From Aeromicrobium sp. IC_218 (GTDB lineage: Bacteria > Actinomycetota > Actinomycetes > Propionibacteriales > Nocardioidaceae), in contig NZ_SJXM01000006.1 of the NCBI RefSeq assembly GCF_004336805.1, positions 124,001-188,000 of the forward strand: DNA of 64,000 nucleotides, written 5' to 3'. The position numbers and the translations under genes were made by a program. The notes under the pieces were generated by a model, which worked only from the letters and a program-made list of their open reading frames with translations, was not told the DNA's origin and searched no databases. Below are positions 10,676 through 16,785 of the stretch, in pieces; positions within the stretch are counted from its first letter, which is position 1, and each line of letters starts with the position of its first letter.

Positions 10676-10752
10676 CGCGGGGTGGAGCAGCTCGGTAGCT
10701 CGCTGGGCTCATAACCCAGAGGTCACAGGTTCAAATCCTGTCCCCGCTACCA
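10676..10752 (+). tRNA. Initiator tRNA-fMet (anticodon CAU)
   Basis: The 77-nt cloverleaf includes an encoded CCA end. The anticodon loop CTCATAA carries CAU and the anticodon stem is closed by three consecutive G-C pairs (GGG/CCC), the initiator hallmark. The first acceptor position is an unpaired C1-U72 combination, which matches the requirement that initiator tRNA lack a strong 1-72 pair. The T loop reads GGTTCAAATCC. A strong hairpin terminator follows 2 nt after the CCA. Confidence 0.97.
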
Positions 10753-10754
10753 CC

Positions 10755-10792
10755 ACGAAGGCCCTTCCGGAGAGATCCGGAAGGGCCTTCGT
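10755..10792 (+). terminator. Intrinsic-type terminator after tRNA-fMet
   Basis: Arms 10755-10770 and 10777-10792 form a perfect 16-bp stem with a 6-nt loop immediately after the tRNA. Confidence 0.85.
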
Positions 10793-10904
10793 CATGTGCT
10801 GACTGGAGCAACTTTTCTGTTCCAGGTCCTTTCGTGACCACTTACGTCTCCCTCCGTGTCATCGACATGCTGCGAACGCTGGACACATTCTCGATCGAAG
10901 GAGA

Positions 10905-11120
10905 GAGAACGCCGTCGCCGTCGTCGACGAACTACTCCGGGATGTCTTTGCTGACGACGAGTGGTTTGTCCACGCGGTGAACGGCGGACTGGTCGGGTGG
11001 TGGCAACGTGGTGCGTATCTGTCTCTGAGCAATCGGAGCCTGCGCGTTCTGGCGCGCGACGGACACGGCCCACCGGGACTGCTCCGAATCCTTGGATCCG
11101 GCGGGACCGAGGCGGTTTGA
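10905..11120 (+). pseudogene. Possible 5'-truncated gene remnant
   Basis: A frame without a usable start codon runs to TGA at 11118-11120 and reads like protein: VAVVDELLRDVFADDEW, then NGGLVGWWQRGAYLSLSN, then LLRILGSGG. No ATG or GTG precedes it in frame except an internal GTG near 10973. It lies at the junction between the tRNA terminator and the low-G+C insert, where decayed reading frames are expected. I do not recognise the family; it may be chance coding-like sequence. The rest of the 10793-11238 interval shows no other feature apart from the Shine-Dalgarno region of the next gene. Confidence 0.3.
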
Positions 11121-11238
11121 TCCGGCCACTAGGCGCAGCCGAATTGAACGCGGGGGAGCAAGAACCGGCTGACATGCCCGCGAAACGCCACCATCCGGGG
11201 GCTGATGTTGCATCCTTAGGTCTGAGGAGGTGGCGATA

Positions 11239-12726
11239 GTGGTTGCTCAGGGCGCTTCGTTGCGCATTCTGATTGATACCAACATTTTTATCGCTGCTGA
11301 AAGCGAAGCAACTAAACTGCACGTCAATGCCGTGAACGCAACGGCGCTCTACCGGTTAGCGACTGAACTCCGGCACACTCTGTGCGTGGGCTCCGGCACT
11401 CTAGAAGACATCGCGCGGCACCATGATGAGGCGCACAGGGCGAAGAGGCGCCAGCAACTGCAGCGGTATCATATTTTTGATTCCGTTGATATCCCTCCTG
11501 GCCTCCAGGCGAAAGCGGGGTATCCTCCCAGGATAAACGCGCAGAGTAGGGTGGATCTTTCACTATTGCTTCTGCTCGACCGAGGCGCTGCGCAATGGTT
11601 GGTGACAGAGGACCAGCGGATCCTCCCCCATGCGAGAGCTCTGCAACTAGAAGACCGCGTCTTTTCTCTGAGTGACTCTTTGGACGTGCTGAGTCGGCAG
11701 CGGCATCAGCCCGTAAACGTTCCGGCAGTTACAGAAATTAAAGGTTATCAGCTTGATCGTGATGATCCGATTTTCGACGAATTCGCGGACGAGTATGATA
11801 TCCGGGCTTGGTTGAAGAACAAGGTGGCGCCCGAAGCCCGAGTTTGTCTAGTCATGCAGGACCCAGGTGAGTCCCTGGACGCCGTGGTGATTTTGAAGGA
11901 GGAGACCGAAACCTCGGGGGGTCTGCCCGGTAAGGTGCTTAAGATTTGCACCTTCAAGGTTTCGCCACACGCTCGTGGGGTCAAGCGAGGAGAGTTGCTC
12001 CTCTGGGCGGTTTTTGAGCACGCGCGGACTAACGCTTACGACTCCATGTTTATCGAGGTGTTCTCGCGCGAGGTTGCACTTATTGAACTGTTCGAAGCCT
12101 TCGGATTTACGAAACTCGATACTACGGATCGAGAGGACGAGTTGGTCCTTGGCAAACGCTTACAGCCCGCGAGTCGACCCGATGGGTTGGATCCTCTGGG
12201 GTACGCTATCGAGTTCGGTCCCGGCGCGATCGCGCCGACCCGCTGGTTTATCGTGCCGATTATACCAAAATGGCATCGAAGTCTCTTTCCCGTGGCGGAT
12301 GACTCCGGACAGTTCGCGCTCTATGACGGAATGACCGACCAGGGCAACGCTATCCGCAAGGCATACGTTTGTCACTCGCCGTCAAAGCAGCTCCGACCCG
12401 GTGACACGCTCCTGTTCCTGCGCACGAGACAGAATCAAATGGCGAATGTCATAGGGGTCGTAGAGGAGACGACGCGGTCATCGGACCCGACGCGAGTTCT
12501 CGAGTTTACCGGACGTCGAACTGTCTATACCCCGGCCGAGATCGCTGATATGTGTTCAAAGGGCGAAGTGCTCGCCATTCGCTTTCGTCTCGATCGGGTG
12601 CTCGACACGCCGATCTCCTCAGATGAGCTCAGGGAGCGAGGAGTGATGGCACGCTCTCCCATGAGTGTTCAACTGGTGTCAGATGAAGGGGCCGTCGAGT
12701 GGCTAGAGACACTGATTTCCGTCTAG
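11239..12726 (+). CDS. PIN nuclease-like / GNAT / PUA-like multidomain protein
   Basis: The 495-residue protein seems to join three domains. Residues ~8-155 are a PIN-type nuclease domain with an ILIDTNIF strand (D13), E56 in TLEDI, D114 and the VTED acidic cluster at 122-125, so all four PIN acidic positions are plausible. Residues ~165-305 resemble a GNAT acetyltransferase (ARGVKRGELLLWAVFEHA, ending ELFEAFGFTKL). Residues ~320-495 look like an EVE/PUA/ASCH-type fold (GDTLLFLRTRQNQ...VIGVVEE). The GTG at 11239 was chosen because GAGGAGG at 11224-11230 sits 8 nt upstream. Base composition is far lower in G+C than its neighbours and two TTA leucine codons occur (11356, 12160), indicating transfer. 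It overlaps the ASCH gene by 28 nt. A toxin or defence role is inference. Confidence 0.75.
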   Translation: MVAQGASLRILIDTNIFIAAESEATKLHVNAVNATALYRLATELRHTLCVGSGTLEDIARHHDEAHRAKRRQQLQRYHIFDSVDIPPGLQAKAGYPPRINAQSRVDLSLLLLLDRGAAQWLVTEDQRILPHARALQLEDRVFSLSDSLDVLSRQRHQPVNVPAVTEIKGYQLDRDDPIFDEFADEYDIRAWLKNKVAPEARVCLVMQDPGESLDAVVILKEETETSGGLPGKVLKICTFKVSPHARGVKRGELLLWAVFEHARTNAYDSMFIEVFSREVALIELFEAFGFTKLDTTDREDELVLGKRLQPASRPDGLDPLGYAIEFGPGAIAPTRWFIVPIIPKWHRSLFPVADDSGQFALYDGMTDQGNAIRKAYVCHSPSKQLRPGDTLLFLRTRQNQMANVIGVVEETTRSSDPTRVLEFTGRRTVYTPAEIADMCSKGEVLAIRFRLDRVLDTPISSDELRERGVMARSPMSVQLVSDEGAVEWLETLISV

Positions 12727-13130
12727 CTCTGCTGTCCGTCCATCCTGAGTACGCGCGTGCCATCGTCGACGGAACGAAGACTGTTGAGTTCCGGAAACGG
12801 CCGCTTGCCGCGGACGTCACTCATGTTGCCGTGTACGCCACTCGACCGGTAGGCCGTGTGATAGCAGTGTTCTCCGTCGAGGAGCAGGTACTCGATGCTC
12901 CGAGCCGGCTATGGGAGATGTTCAAACCGGTTGGGGGAATCTCGCACGACAAGTTTTTCGAGTACTACGACGGACATCAGCAGGGCGTGGGCATCAAGGT
13001 CGCTGATCTCGTCAGACTGGCCGAGCACGAGTCTCTCGAGGATGCCTTCGGAATCAGTCGGCCTCCGCAGAGCGTCCAGTACTTCGATGCCTCGGATGCG
13101 TCAGCCGCTGTCCGGCTCGCGTTTGCTTGA
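12699..13130 (+). CDS. ASCH-domain protein (COG4933-like)
   Basis: The 143-residue protein opens with an ASCH/PUA-like domain. The diagnostic GxKxxExR motif is G25-T-K27-T-V-E30-F-R32, preceded by LLSVHPEYARAIVDG, followed by VAVYATRPVGRVIAVFSV and ending with FFEYYDGHQQGVGIKV. ASCH proteins are predicted RNA-binding or nucleotide/modified-base-recognising modules, and COG4933 members are often listed as predicted regulators. The GTG start lies within the end of the PIN-GNAT gene (28-nt overlap), so the pair is probably translated together. Its base composition is intermediate and clearly lower in G+C than the chromosome around it. Confidence 0.82.
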   Translation: MARDTDFRLALLSVHPEYARAIVDGTKTVEFRKRPLAADVTHVAVYATRPVGRVIAVFSVEEQVLDAPSRLWEMFKPVGGISHDKFFEYYDGHQQGVGIKVADLVRLAEHESLEDAFGISRPPQSVQYFDASDASAAVRLAFA

Positions 13131-13161
13131 CGCGCACGGTATCCGGCATCCAACTCATGAG

Positions 13162-13281
13162 TACGCCCGCTTGCCGGGGGGAGTGGGCTGAGGGAGAGTC
13201 ATGGCGGATGAGCTGCGGCTGGAGCGGCCGGCGTCGGTCGATGACGTGGCAACGGTGACGCGCGAGCGGTGAGGCGTCGAA
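13162..13281 (+). pseudogene. Decayed duplicate of the 5' end and promoter of the gene at 13963
   Basis: Bases 13162-13281 align with 13923-14043, covering about 40 nt of upstream region and the first ~26 codons of the kinase/aminotransferase gene. The copy keeps the GAG-rich ribosome site and ATG (13201). It reads MADELRLERPASVDDVATVTRER and then stops (13270-13272), against MAEQLGGLARPVVSVEDAAP in the intact gene. The premature TGA falls where the intact gene has a Trp codon. The copy sits directly downstream of the foreign PIN/ASCH pair. Confidence 0.8.
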
Positions 13282-13338
13282 CCGTGCATCGTTGTTCCTT
13301 CAGGGTCGCGTCCCGCCGCCCGGTGTGGGGCCCGTGCC

Positions 13339-13821: not shown

Positions 13822-13962
13822 GGTGGCTCCTCAGCCGGGAAGCAGGTTGGCTTTCGACGATAGTCGCCGGGTCCGGCGTCGCCACCCGACGGCGAGGACG
13901 TCCACCGTGCGCCGTCGAGGACTACGCTCGCTTCGCCGGGGCGGAGTGGGCTGAGGAGAGTC

Positions 13963-16785
13963 ATGGCGGAGCAGCTGGGTGGGCTGGCGCGGCCGGTCGT
14001 GTCGGTCGAGGACGCGGCGCCGGTGGCGCGTGAGCGGTGGGGCGTCGAGGGGGACGTCGTCGAGCTCGGCAGCAACCAGGACCGCAACTTCCGCATCGGC
14101 GCCGGGCACGTGCTCAAGGTCGCCAACGCCGCCACGGACGTCGCCGAGCTCGAGGCCCAGAACGCGTCCATGGACGTCCTCGCCGATGCCGGCATGCGGG
14201 CGCCGCGGCCGGTCGAGAGCACCAGCGGCCGCACCGTCGAGCCGGTCGAGATCGGTGGCGTCACCCTCCACGCGCGGCTGCTGACGTACGTCGAGGGCGA
14301 GCCGCTCATGGACGTCCCGTCCTTCGGCGAGGCCGAGGCGCGCATGCTCGGTGAGACGGCCGGACGCATCGTCGCCGCGCTGGCCGGGTTCGAGCACGCG
14401 GGCACCACGCGCACGACGCAGTGGGACCTGCGCGCCGCACCGGACGTCGTCCGCGCCCTGCTGCACCACGTGCCCGAGAGCCTGCGGTCCCGCGTCGCCA
14501 ACGCCAGCCTGGACTCCGTCGCGCGGGTCGCGGCCGTGTCGCCCGCGCTGCCGCTGCAGGTGATCCACGGCGACGTCACCGACGACAACCTCGTGCTCGA
14601 CGAGCAGGGGAGCGTCGGCGTCATCGACCTGGGCGACCTCATGGTCAGCTGGCGCGTCGCCGAGCTCGCCGTCGCGATCACCGGCGTGCTGGCCAACGGC
14701 TGCGACGACCCGCTGACGTCGCTCGAGACCGTCCGCGCGTTCGCCGAGCAGGTGCCGCTCGAGCACGCCGAGGTCGTGGCTCTGTGGCCGCTCGTCGTCC
14801 TGCGCTGCGCCGTGCTCGTCACCAGCGCCGCCGAGCTCACCGCGATCGACGAGGGCAACGACTACGCCGCCGAGCGGACGAGCCGCGAGTGGCGCGCGTT
14901 CCGGCTCGCCACGTCCTTCGACCCCGACGAGATGGCCGTGCTGGTCGCCGCCACCGTCGCGGGCGTGCGGCCGCGGCCGTTCTCGCTCGGCCGCATGCTG
15001 CCCGAGCACGTCCGGCCGAGCGTCGTCGACCTGTCCGTGCTCAGCCCGTCGCTGGACGCCGGTCGCTGGCTCGAGCCGGACGCCGAGCAGGCCGTCCTCG
15101 ACGCCGAGGGCGCGCCGGTCAGCACCCGCTGGGCCGAGCACCGGCTCACCCAGGCTCGTCCGCTCGCGCCCCGGGGCAGCGCCCGGACGCTCGCGCTGGG
15201 CGTCGACGTCGTCGTGCCTGACGGCACCCTGCTGCACGTCCCGTTCGAGGGACAGCGAGTGCGCATCGACGGCGGCTTCGAGCTGCGCGGCGACGCGCTG
15301 ACCCTCGTCGTCCGGGGCGACGTCGAGGATGCGGACGGGCTCGGGCTCGCGTCCGGTCGCCTGCGCGTCCAGCTGCACCGCACCGAGGCGCCGCGGGCGC
15401 CGTTCTTCGTCAGCCCGCGGGCCGAGTCGCTGTGGCGGGCGCTGAGCCCGGACCCGTCCGCCCTGCTCGGCGTCGACGTGGCCGCACCGCCGACGGACGC
15501 CGACCGCGTGCTCGCCCGCCGCGACGCCGCCTACGCGCCGGTGCAGGAGCACTACTACGCCGCGCCGCCGCAGGTCGAGCGCGGCTGGCGCGAGCTCATG
15601 GTCGACACCCAGGCGCAGGTCTACGTCGACGCGGTCAACAACGTCGCGACCACCGGCCACGCGCATCCGCACCTGGTCGAGGCCGCCACCCGCCAGTGGT
15701 CGCTGCTCAACACCAACTCGCGCTTCCACTACGCCGCGGTCGCCGAGCTGTCCGAGCGGCTCGCCGCCCTCGGGCCCGACCGCCTCGACAGCGTCTTCCT
15801 GGTCAACAGCGGCAGCGAGGCCGTCGACCTGGCCATCCGGCTCGCGCAGGTCGCCACCGGACGTCCGCGGATGCTCGCCGCCCGCGAGGCGTACCACGGC
15901 TGGACGCTCGCCTCCGACGCCGTCTCCACGTCCCTGGGCGACAACCCGCGCGCGCTCGAGAGCCGTCCGGACTGGGTCGAGCTCATCGACGCGCCCAACA
16001 GCGTCCGCGGCACGCACCGCGGCCCGGACGCCGCCACCGGCTACCTCGCCGATCTCGACGTGCAACTGAACGCGCTCGGCGAGGAGGGACGTGCGCAGCT
16101 CGCCGGCGTCGTCATCGAGCCGATCTTCGGCAACGGCGGGGGAGTGCTGCTGCCCGACGGCTACCTCGCCGGCGTCTTCGAGCGGGTGCGTGCGCTCGGC
16201 GGCGTGTGCATCAGCGACGAGGTGCAGGTCAGCTACGGACGCCTCGGCGAGCACTTCTGGGGCTTCGAGCAGCAGGACGCCGTGCCGGACGTCATCACCG
16301 TCGCCAAGGCGATGGGCAACGGGCAGCCGCTCGGCGCGGTCATCACGACCCGCGAGATCGCCGAGGCGTTCGCCGCCGAAGGATCGTTCTTCAGCTCCGC
16401 CGGCGGCAGCCCGGTCAGCTCGCGGATCGGCCTGGCCGTGCTGGACGTCCTGGAGTCCGAGGGCCTCCAGCAGAACGCGCGCGAGGTCGGCGGGCACTTC
16501 CGCGAGCGGCTGCTCGCCCTGGCTGAGCGGCACCCGGCGATCGGGGCGGTGCACGGCATGGGGCTGTACCTCGGCGTCGAGCTGGTCAGCGACCGCGAGA
16601 CGTTCGCGCCGGCCACGCGGCTGGCCGCCGACGTCTGCGACCTGCTGCTCGAGGAGGGCGCCATCGTGCAGCCCACCGGCGACCACAAGAACGTCCTCAA
16701 GATCAAGCCGCCGCTCGTCATCACCCGCGAGAGCGTCGACCACGTCGTGGAGGCCCTCGACCGCGTCCTGTCGATGCTCGGGTGA
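13963..16785 (+). CDS. APH-like kinase / class III aminotransferase fusion protein
   Basis: The 940-residue protein fuses two enzymes. Residues ~1-340 are an aminoglycoside/choline-kinase-like domain with HGDVTDDN (D204) and the metal-binding IDLGD. Residues ~360-500 form a beta-rich linker that resembles the degenerate M23-like segment of such fusions. Residues ~520-940 are a PLP-dependent class III aminotransferase like ethanolamine-phosphate phospho-lyase, with SGSEAVDLAIRLA, ISDEVQVSYGR and the PLP lysine K782 in VAKAMGNG. The pairing suggests phosphorylation followed by amine removal from an amino-alcohol-like substrate, but the substrate is not known. The ATG has GAGGAG 4-9 nt upstream. 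A truncated duplicate of its 5' end lies 760 bp upstream. Confidence 0.88.
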   Translation: MAEQLGGLARPVVSVEDAAPVARERWGVEGDVVELGSNQDRNFRIGAGHVLKVANAATDVAELEAQNASMDVLADAGMRAPRPVESTSGRTVEPVEIGGVTLHARLLTYVEGEPLMDVPSFGEAEARMLGETAGRIVAALAGFEHAGTTRTTQWDLRAAPDVVRALLHHVPESLRSRVANASLDSVARVAAVSPALPLQVIHGDVTDDNLVLDEQGSVGVIDLGDLMVSWRVAELAVAITGVLANGCDDPLTSLETVRAFAEQVPLEHAEVVALWPLVVLRCAVLVTSAAELTAIDEGNDYAAERTSREWRAFRLATSFDPDEMAVLVAATVAGVRPRPFSLGRMLPEHVRPSVVDLSVLSPSLDAGRWLEPDAEQAVLDAEGAPVSTRWAEHRLTQARPLAPRGSARTLALGVDVVVPDGTLLHVPFEGQRVRIDGGFELRGDALTLVVRGDVEDADGLGLASGRLRVQLHRTEAPRAPFFVSPRAESLWRALSPDPSALLGVDVAAPPTDADRVLARRDAAYAPVQEHYYAAPPQVERGWRELMVDTQAQVYVDAVNNVATTGHAHPHLVEAATRQWSLLNTNSRFHYAAVAELSERLAALGPDRLDSVFLVNSGSEAVDLAIRLAQVATGRPRMLAAREAYHGWTLASDAVSTSLGDNPRALESRPDWVELIDAPNSVRGTHRGPDAATGYLADLDVQLNALGEEGRAQLAGVVIEPIFGNGGGVLLPDGYLAGVFERVRALGGVCISDEVQVSYGRLGEHFWGFEQQDAVPDVITVAKAMGNGQPLGAVITTREIAEAFAAEGSFFSSAGGSPVSSRIGLAVLDVLESEGLQQNAREVGGHFRERLLALAERHPAIGAVHGMGLYLGVELVSDRETFAPATRLAADVCDLLLEEGAIVQPTGDHKNVLKIKPPLVITRESVDHVVEALDRVLSMLG

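Follow-up and report, generated by a model that had tools for sequence, protein, structure and literature searches.

The closest described relatives of the locus considered here, a two-gene insert of the actinobacterium Aeromicrobium sp. IC_218, are the (PIN)-GNAT-EVE + ASCH operons of Bell et al. 2020 (PMC7641849). According to excerpts of that study: (i) GNAT-EVE proteins frequently have an N-terminal PIN domain, and their operons nearly always encode an ASCH protein, (ii) the PIN forms occur near type I restriction systems, (iii) a toxin-antitoxin or defence role is predicted, with an earlier account credited to Iyer et al. 2013, and (iv) as of 2020 no module of this kind had been studied by experiment. 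PADLOC-DB catalogues a matching pair as PDC-M11, where PDC names denote unpublished candidates attributed to Payne et al. 2021 (PMC11811056, excerpt). A homologous pair is also deposited from a lambdoid Escherichia coli phage (Escherichia phage PhiR47_2, GenBank PV340567.1), in which the genes lie between cI and kil, overlap by 23 nucleotides (nt) and are labelled GevT toxin and GevA antitoxin. Of 5426 E. coli genomes, 274 have GevT/GevA copies of at least 99% identity; RefSeq names among the eight matches listed are hypothetical protein and ASCH domain-containing protein. The pair is not described in excerpts of PMC10853773 and PMC12839542.

The Aeromicrobium pair, termed gene A and gene B, is located in a stretch of 64,000 nt (contig NZ_SJXM01000006.1, positions 124,001 to 188,000), here called the window, and all coordinates below refer to it. 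The pair belongs to a known, catalogued but little-studied predicted family and is not a new system. Protein A matches PDC-M11A (PDLC04421) at 8.5e-169 over residues 9-493 and protein B matches PDC-M11B (PDLC04425) at 2.4e-42 over residues 10-134; thus, both genes match nearly full length, and the pair is a plain member for which no difference from PDC-M11 was found. An initial annotation of the window had offered the locus as its strongest candidate for an undescribed system, a proposal that is rejected in view of the PADLOC entry, the architecture analysed in 2020 (PMC7641849, excerpts) and the phage homologue deposited as GevT/GevA. Similarly to the operons of Bell et al., the order PIN-GNAT-EVE, with a putative EVE part, is found in one protein and ASCH in the next gene; unlike those operons, as far as excerpted, the pair is a stand-alone two-gene insert at a tRNA gene with no restriction or AAA_17 gene within it. 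GevT/GevA likewise consists of a GNAT-EVE protein followed by an overlapping ASCH protein (135 bits with the A profile and 141 bits with the B profile, respectively), but GevT, unlike A, has no PIN domain. The features of the pair are as follows, with domain borders as drawn in this analysis.

11239..12726, + strand: gene A, PIN-GNAT-EVE-like protein of 495 amino acids (aa), GTG start, PDC-M11A
12699..13130, + strand: gene B, ASCH protein of 143 aa, GTG start, PDC-M11B
12699..12726, + strand: overlap of genes A and B, exactly 28 nt
11224..11230, + strand: Shine-Dalgarno-like GAGGAGG, 8 nt 5' of the GTG of gene A
11260..11703, + strand: PIN domain of A, residues 8-155, with acids D13, D57, D106 and D125
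11731..12171, + strand: GNAT domain of A, residues 165-311, with coenzyme A (CoA) loop RGVKRGE
12172..12723, + strand: C-terminal PUA/EVE/ASCH-like reader domain of A, residues 312-495

With moderate confidence, the pair is predicted to be an RNA-targeting module of the toxin-antitoxin type with a role in anti-phage defence. The class suggested by the initial annotation, that of toxin or defence modules, is upheld as the best one by the family match, the deposited toxin and antitoxin names of the homologous phage pair, the constant pairing with ASCH and the Lamassu system that a sister genome has at this site. New to the present analysis are the tRNA-associated integration hot spot, the constant ASCH pairing with a common overlap, the homology of the reader to the ASCH partner, the joint divergence of these two (weak in close relatives) and a CoA loop without its first Gly. 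As a compact two-gene member with no restriction genes in the insert, the pair is suited to probing the roles of the PIN, GNAT and reader domains.

Protein A was initially read as a PIN fold with intact acidic residues, joined to an acetyltransferase-like domain and a C-terminal PUA/EVE-like fold, and this architecture is supported. Pfam matches GNAT (PF00583, 8.7e-6) and, below threshold, PIN_3 (0.0044) in protein A, with no EVE match at E <= 1. In 74 relatives (set A3, from the 120 listed A matches of set A1) searched at E <= 0.01, GNAT is matched in 65, PIN_3 in 36 (best 1.4e-8) and EVE (PF01878) in four (best 6.3e-5). The four PIN acids are all present in A and are conserved over 203 aligned rows, which count the window pair twice, include GevT and the archaeal prophage psiM100 and overlap with the database matches: D13 in 200 (a count that includes GevT via chance alignment), D or E at D57 in 200, D106 in 199 and D125 in 201. 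In the reader domain, position 475 is Met in A, while 186 of the 203 rows have Q and eight have M. The canonical CoA-phosphate loop of GNAT domains is Q/R-x-x-G-x-G/A. The loop of A, RGVKRG, differs in that Lys249 replaces the first Gly, a position occupied by K or R in 189 of the 203 rows and by Gly in two, whereas the second Gly is retained in 202.

Protein B is the ASCH partner noted initially, with a Pfam ASCH match (5.7e-5) and the GxKxxExR motif at residues 25-32 (G25, K27, E30 and R32). Over 166 aligned B rows, in which the window pair is again counted twice and database matches overlap, K27, E30 and R32 are each found in 165 and G25 in 162; conservation extends to Y46, Y89 and Q124 (166 each) and S125 (159). 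The closest solved relative by profile (1.2e-30) is ZmASCH of Zymomonas mobilis (5gus/5guq), likewise an ASCH protein, whose residues R32, Y47, Y90, Q127 and S128 align with R32, Y46, Y89, Q124 and S125 of B. In the excerpts of Kim et al. (PMC5615036), simulation puts these ZmASCH residues in an RNA cleft, Y47 and S128 are among the residues mutated, and Lys53 mattered for nucleic-acid binding. The RNA-cleft residues are, thus, common to both proteins; by contrast, Lys53 is not conserved in the B family, where its counterpart is Gly52 in B itself and K in only 30 of the 166 rows.

Matches to A at E <= 1e-3 number 1390 or more, a lower bound from 8000 scored candidates, with 120 of the matches listed (set A1), and 83 proteins match B, of which 81 form set A2 after the short P0179 and P0194 were omitted. 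A scan of genome contigs gave 174 confirmed loci, the best 80 of which represent many phyla and include 79 with a readable A; L075 ends at a contig end and L086 is without the PIN part. B adjoins A in all 79 readable loci, downstream in 74 and upstream in five, and a possible B start lies inside A in 60 of them (-28 nt in 33, -31 nt in 7 and -34 nt in 20), although these counts are not independent because the loci are related by descent. By record titles, the possible overlaps of 28-34 nt span actinobacteria, Chloroflexi, myxobacteria and a cyanobacterium, while a possible overlap of 11 nt occurs in eight loci, mostly of Alistipes, Bacteroidales and Paludibacteraceae. The archaeal prophage psiM100 (L150:1566-4858) has the same PIN-GNAT-EVE/ASCH pair, in or bordering what its depositors call the 'inserted fragment IFa'.

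The C-terminal domain of A and protein B are homologous by profile comparison. HHalign aligns the two end to end over 141 columns (P of 4.1e-5 or 2.3e-4 by direction), while PIN against B and GNAT against B both give P > 0.5. This direct alignment is weak alone because its probability is only 43% and 20%; the two are bridged by a rare GNAT-PIN variant. In two genomes of the genus (G036, L194:2559-5299, and G004, L195:3758-6408), B has a different upstream partner that it overlaps by 4 nt. The G036 partner (688 aa) begins with a GNAT domain, which is followed by a PIN domain (matched by Pfam at only 0.072), a GNAT-like stretch and finally a reader; in G004 the partner gene has an uncertain start, and a phage-type integrase gene adjoins the variant in that genome. 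PADLOC did not recognise pieces of the partner without the N-terminal part (453 and 472 aa). A database search with the variant returned 17 matches, a count that includes the query and a 503-aa protein, and none of 396 genomes across the phylum has the variant at E <= 1e-30. The alignment of these 17 matches A over 460 columns (98.3%, 1.4e-14), with its PIN part matching that of A (96.3%, 1.7e-9) and its C-terminal part matching both the A reader (96.1%, 3.5e-9) and B (97.1%, 7.8e-11). Since the same C-terminal part matches both, the A reader and B belong to one ASCH-like family. The inner stretch matches the GNAT domain of A weakly (14.7%, 0.0018) and has no G-x-G loop, and the first GNAT domain of the variant gives no significant alignment to that of A; its loop is R-x-x-G-x-A in G036 (RRTGVA) but not in G004 (RRQRVA).

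Divergence was compared at 80 loci, consisting of 78 contig loci, the G030 pair (a second full-length A in the genus, described below) and psiM100, with L086 and the window pair omitted. Pairwise B distances track those of the A reader domain (partial r of 0.557, 5-95% range of 0.50-0.62) and not those of PIN (-0.06) or GNAT (0.13). With equal column numbers, Spearman values are 0.64 for the C-terminal domain, 0.29 for PIN and 0.42 for GNAT, and the sliding profile is uneven, with 0.62 at 271-330 and again at 421-480 and 0.49 at 121-180, a part of PIN. These values are only suggestive of a tendency of B to diverge together with the A reader, one that appears weak in close relatives. Together, reader homology and co-divergence provide a concrete hypothesis on how the ASCH partner acts.

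In the proposed mechanism, protein A would be the toxin. Its C-terminal reader may capture RNA (possibly tRNA that is modified or charged) for cleavage by the PIN domain and/or acylation by the GNAT domain. Protein B, made at a fixed ratio through translational coupling, would restrain A by contacting its reader or by occupying the RNA to which the reader binds, a balance that infection would disturb. Restraint by reader contact or RNA occupancy is considered most likely because B is a homologue of the A reader and shows a tendency to diverge along with it. A more specific version, which is tentative and rather improbable, is that the antitoxin is a copy of the targeting domain of the toxin: B would mimic the A reader by keeping hold of its RNA or by pairing with the reader itself, and phage interference with one reader would free the PIN/GNAT effector. 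In this version the GNAT domain, which has Lys or Arg in its CoA loop and whose weakly aligned counterpart in the rare variant has no recognisable loop, might serve as scaffold or sensor and not as the catalytic toxin.

The pair is horizontally acquired, real and intact. As initially noted, both genes are low in G+C (0.562 for A and 0.595 for B, against 0.724 and 0.726 in the flanks), the first uses two TTA codons and the overlap is 28 nt. G+C at third codon positions is 0.62 in A and 0.66 in B compared to 0.93-0.97 in three neighbour genes, which have no TTA codon. A 76% identical full-length homologue (P0002) exists; thus, gene A is more than a chance open frame. In a search of 58 genomes, which included 37 of the same genus, full-length A is found in the window genome and in G030 (38% identity), where the pair adjoins an AbiTii gene; a third match, in G022, covers the GNAT stretch only. 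Counting the window genome, A is therefore present in 2 of 37 genus genomes and, at E <= 1e-20, in 3 of 396 genomes of the phylum sample, with none in 14 control genomes at this threshold. The foreign origin suggested initially agrees with this sporadic distribution and the low G+C. A housekeeping gene is rejected, given the same distribution and the lack of a counterpart in the sister genome G010. A distant nucleotide search of the insert against plasmids gave no match, and a promoter scan gave nothing beyond chance level.

The insert is located beside an initiator tRNA gene, as first described, and the following features mark its surroundings.

10676..10752, + strand: tRNA-Met(CAT), initiator (tRNA-iMet), whose 3' half is a duplicated att-like core in relatives
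10755..10792, + strand: tRNA terminator hairpin with 17-bp perfect arms
10797..13158, no strand: low-G+C acquired stretch, to which nothing corresponds at this site in sister genome G010
10908..11117, + strand: remnant open stretch of 70 codons, left of gene A
13159..13280, + strand: degraded copy (82%) of 13920-14048, bordering the insert on the right

Initiator tRNAs are distinguished by a C1/T72 mismatch and three G-C pairs below the anticodon. Both are found in this tRNA-Met(CAT). The segment 13920-14048 is the start of the downstream gene (13963-16785), read from its sequence as a putative phosphotransferase/aminotransferase fusion. A putative DoxX-like gene, likewise read from sequence, separates the degraded copy from this intact gene. 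The stretch at 10908-11117 appears to be a gene remnant, and Pfam gave nothing for it. In the sister genome G010, whose copy of the downstream gene is 94% identical, nothing like the pair is present at the site, and neither A nor B is found elsewhere in the genome. Instead, the same tRNA is followed by Lamassu LmuA, LmuC and LmuB (7.6e-106, 5.1e-51 and 9.5e-239), a complete defence system, then by a further copy of the tRNA 3' half, which together with the original terminator spans 86 nt and is 98.8% identical to window 10711-10796, and then by a Schlafen-type helicase gene, a MazG-like gene and the same DoxX-like gene (L034:1955-9723). The Schlafen-type helicase has a putative GIY-YIG-like start by its sequence. 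As a hot spot the site is new, with the pair in the window and Lamassu between duplicated tRNA 3' ends in the sister.

Several points weigh against a defence module of the toxin-antitoxin type, or against parts of it. The names GevT and GevA are depositors' labels, taken from the record alone, and no experimental test of the pair was found in the open-licence literature searched. Type I restriction or AAA_17 genes, which are frequent but not obligate neighbours, are absent within 10797-13338, a stretch that has no full gene besides A and B; thus, no restriction gene accompanies the pair in the insert. No second tRNA 3' copy flanks the insert in the window, so that the pair either arrived long ago or was acquired in some other way; on this ground, recent integration between att sites is rejected for the window. 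A neighbourhood survey of homologues, proposed initially as a check for defence enrichment, gave only a weak signal: type I methyltransferase is the top model among 148 nearest genes of the 79 loci (5 of 148 compared to 2 of 114 distant genes), while mad2 is most frequent in the distant set (4 of 114). Neighbour genes in this survey were called by a simple script, 240 models matched in the near set and 109 in the far set, and the frequencies given are from the top 25 models of each. The divergence signal shrinks to 0.285 (compared to 0.11 for PIN and 0.11 for GNAT) in the 64 loci that have B downstream after 11 divergent loci are dropped, and physical linkage, with the reader adjoining B, could be behind it. 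ZmASCH is an RNase in vitro (PMC5615036, excerpts), and B may therefore exceed the role of an antitoxin.

The same biochemistry could also serve a selfish addiction module that maintains the island of an integrated element rather than defending against phage, a possibility that is less probable than defence but the foremost of its rivals. It is favoured by the homologous pairs of a lambdoid phage and of an archaeal prophage, by the integrase gene beside the variant in G004 and by the occurrence of A homologues in 14 phage records, in 31 plasmid records, of which 17 cover 80% or more of the query, and on 13 viral contigs, of which 11 have A at close to full length and including the PIN part. 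The cargo of the sister at the same site is by contrast a defence system, and PIN forms are noted near type I restriction systems (PMC7641849, excerpts), though viral contigs and psiM100 also have PIN forms. The RNase activity of ZmASCH would fit another arrangement, in which A and B form a single effector complex, composed of two readers and an RNase and directed straight at modified phage nucleic acid, with no classical toxin-antitoxin pair. The constant pairing with overlap and the homologous readers of both proteins are compatible with such a complex, as is an archaeal locus (L098) with an ASCH match in a 566-aa frame, which would fit the ASCH-HsdS fusion mentioned in excerpts of PMC7641849, the ASCH part alone being identified. 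It is nevertheless judged unlikely, as GevT/GevA are deposited as toxin and antitoxin, and the residue important for nucleic-acid binding in ZmASCH is Gly52 in B and rarely K in its family. PIN, GNAT and PUA-like domains are common in RNA metabolism. A non-defence accessory module for RNA processing or tRNA acylation in stress physiology would be in keeping with these domains, yet it is highly improbable given the low G+C, the lack of a sister counterpart and the few phylum genomes with A. Least probable of all is decaying passenger DNA with no current function; the remnant stretch upstream, the degraded copy at the right edge and Met475 in place of the usual Q would fit decay, but both frames are intact, and the four PIN acids, the ASCH cleft residues and the ribosome-binding site are retained.

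A further partial copy of the tRNA 3' end (35-58 nt) is found in 11 of 49 genus genomes, always downstream on the same contig and strand at 2.7 to 76 kb. The recurrence of such copies indicates that tRNA-iMet is a recurrent integration site, and the hot spot is a place to seek more defence genes in the genus. Of 20 genus genomes fetched, 181 open reading frames were called, and 95 of these, from the 12 genomes with low G+C after the tRNA, were scanned; PADLOC matches are scattered, with one or two members of a system each (Csa3, mad3/mad8, type II methyltransferase, TmtA, PDC-M16A, PDC-S68 and type IV RecD), and no enrichment is claimed because the scan had no control set. Two genomes (G014, L152, and G020, L153) each have three successive partial tRNA-iMet 3' ends downstream of the tRNA, as if from repeated tandem integrations, and in G035 (L163) the tRNA-iMet gene is present in two complete copies, identical to each other and separated by about 1.6 kb.

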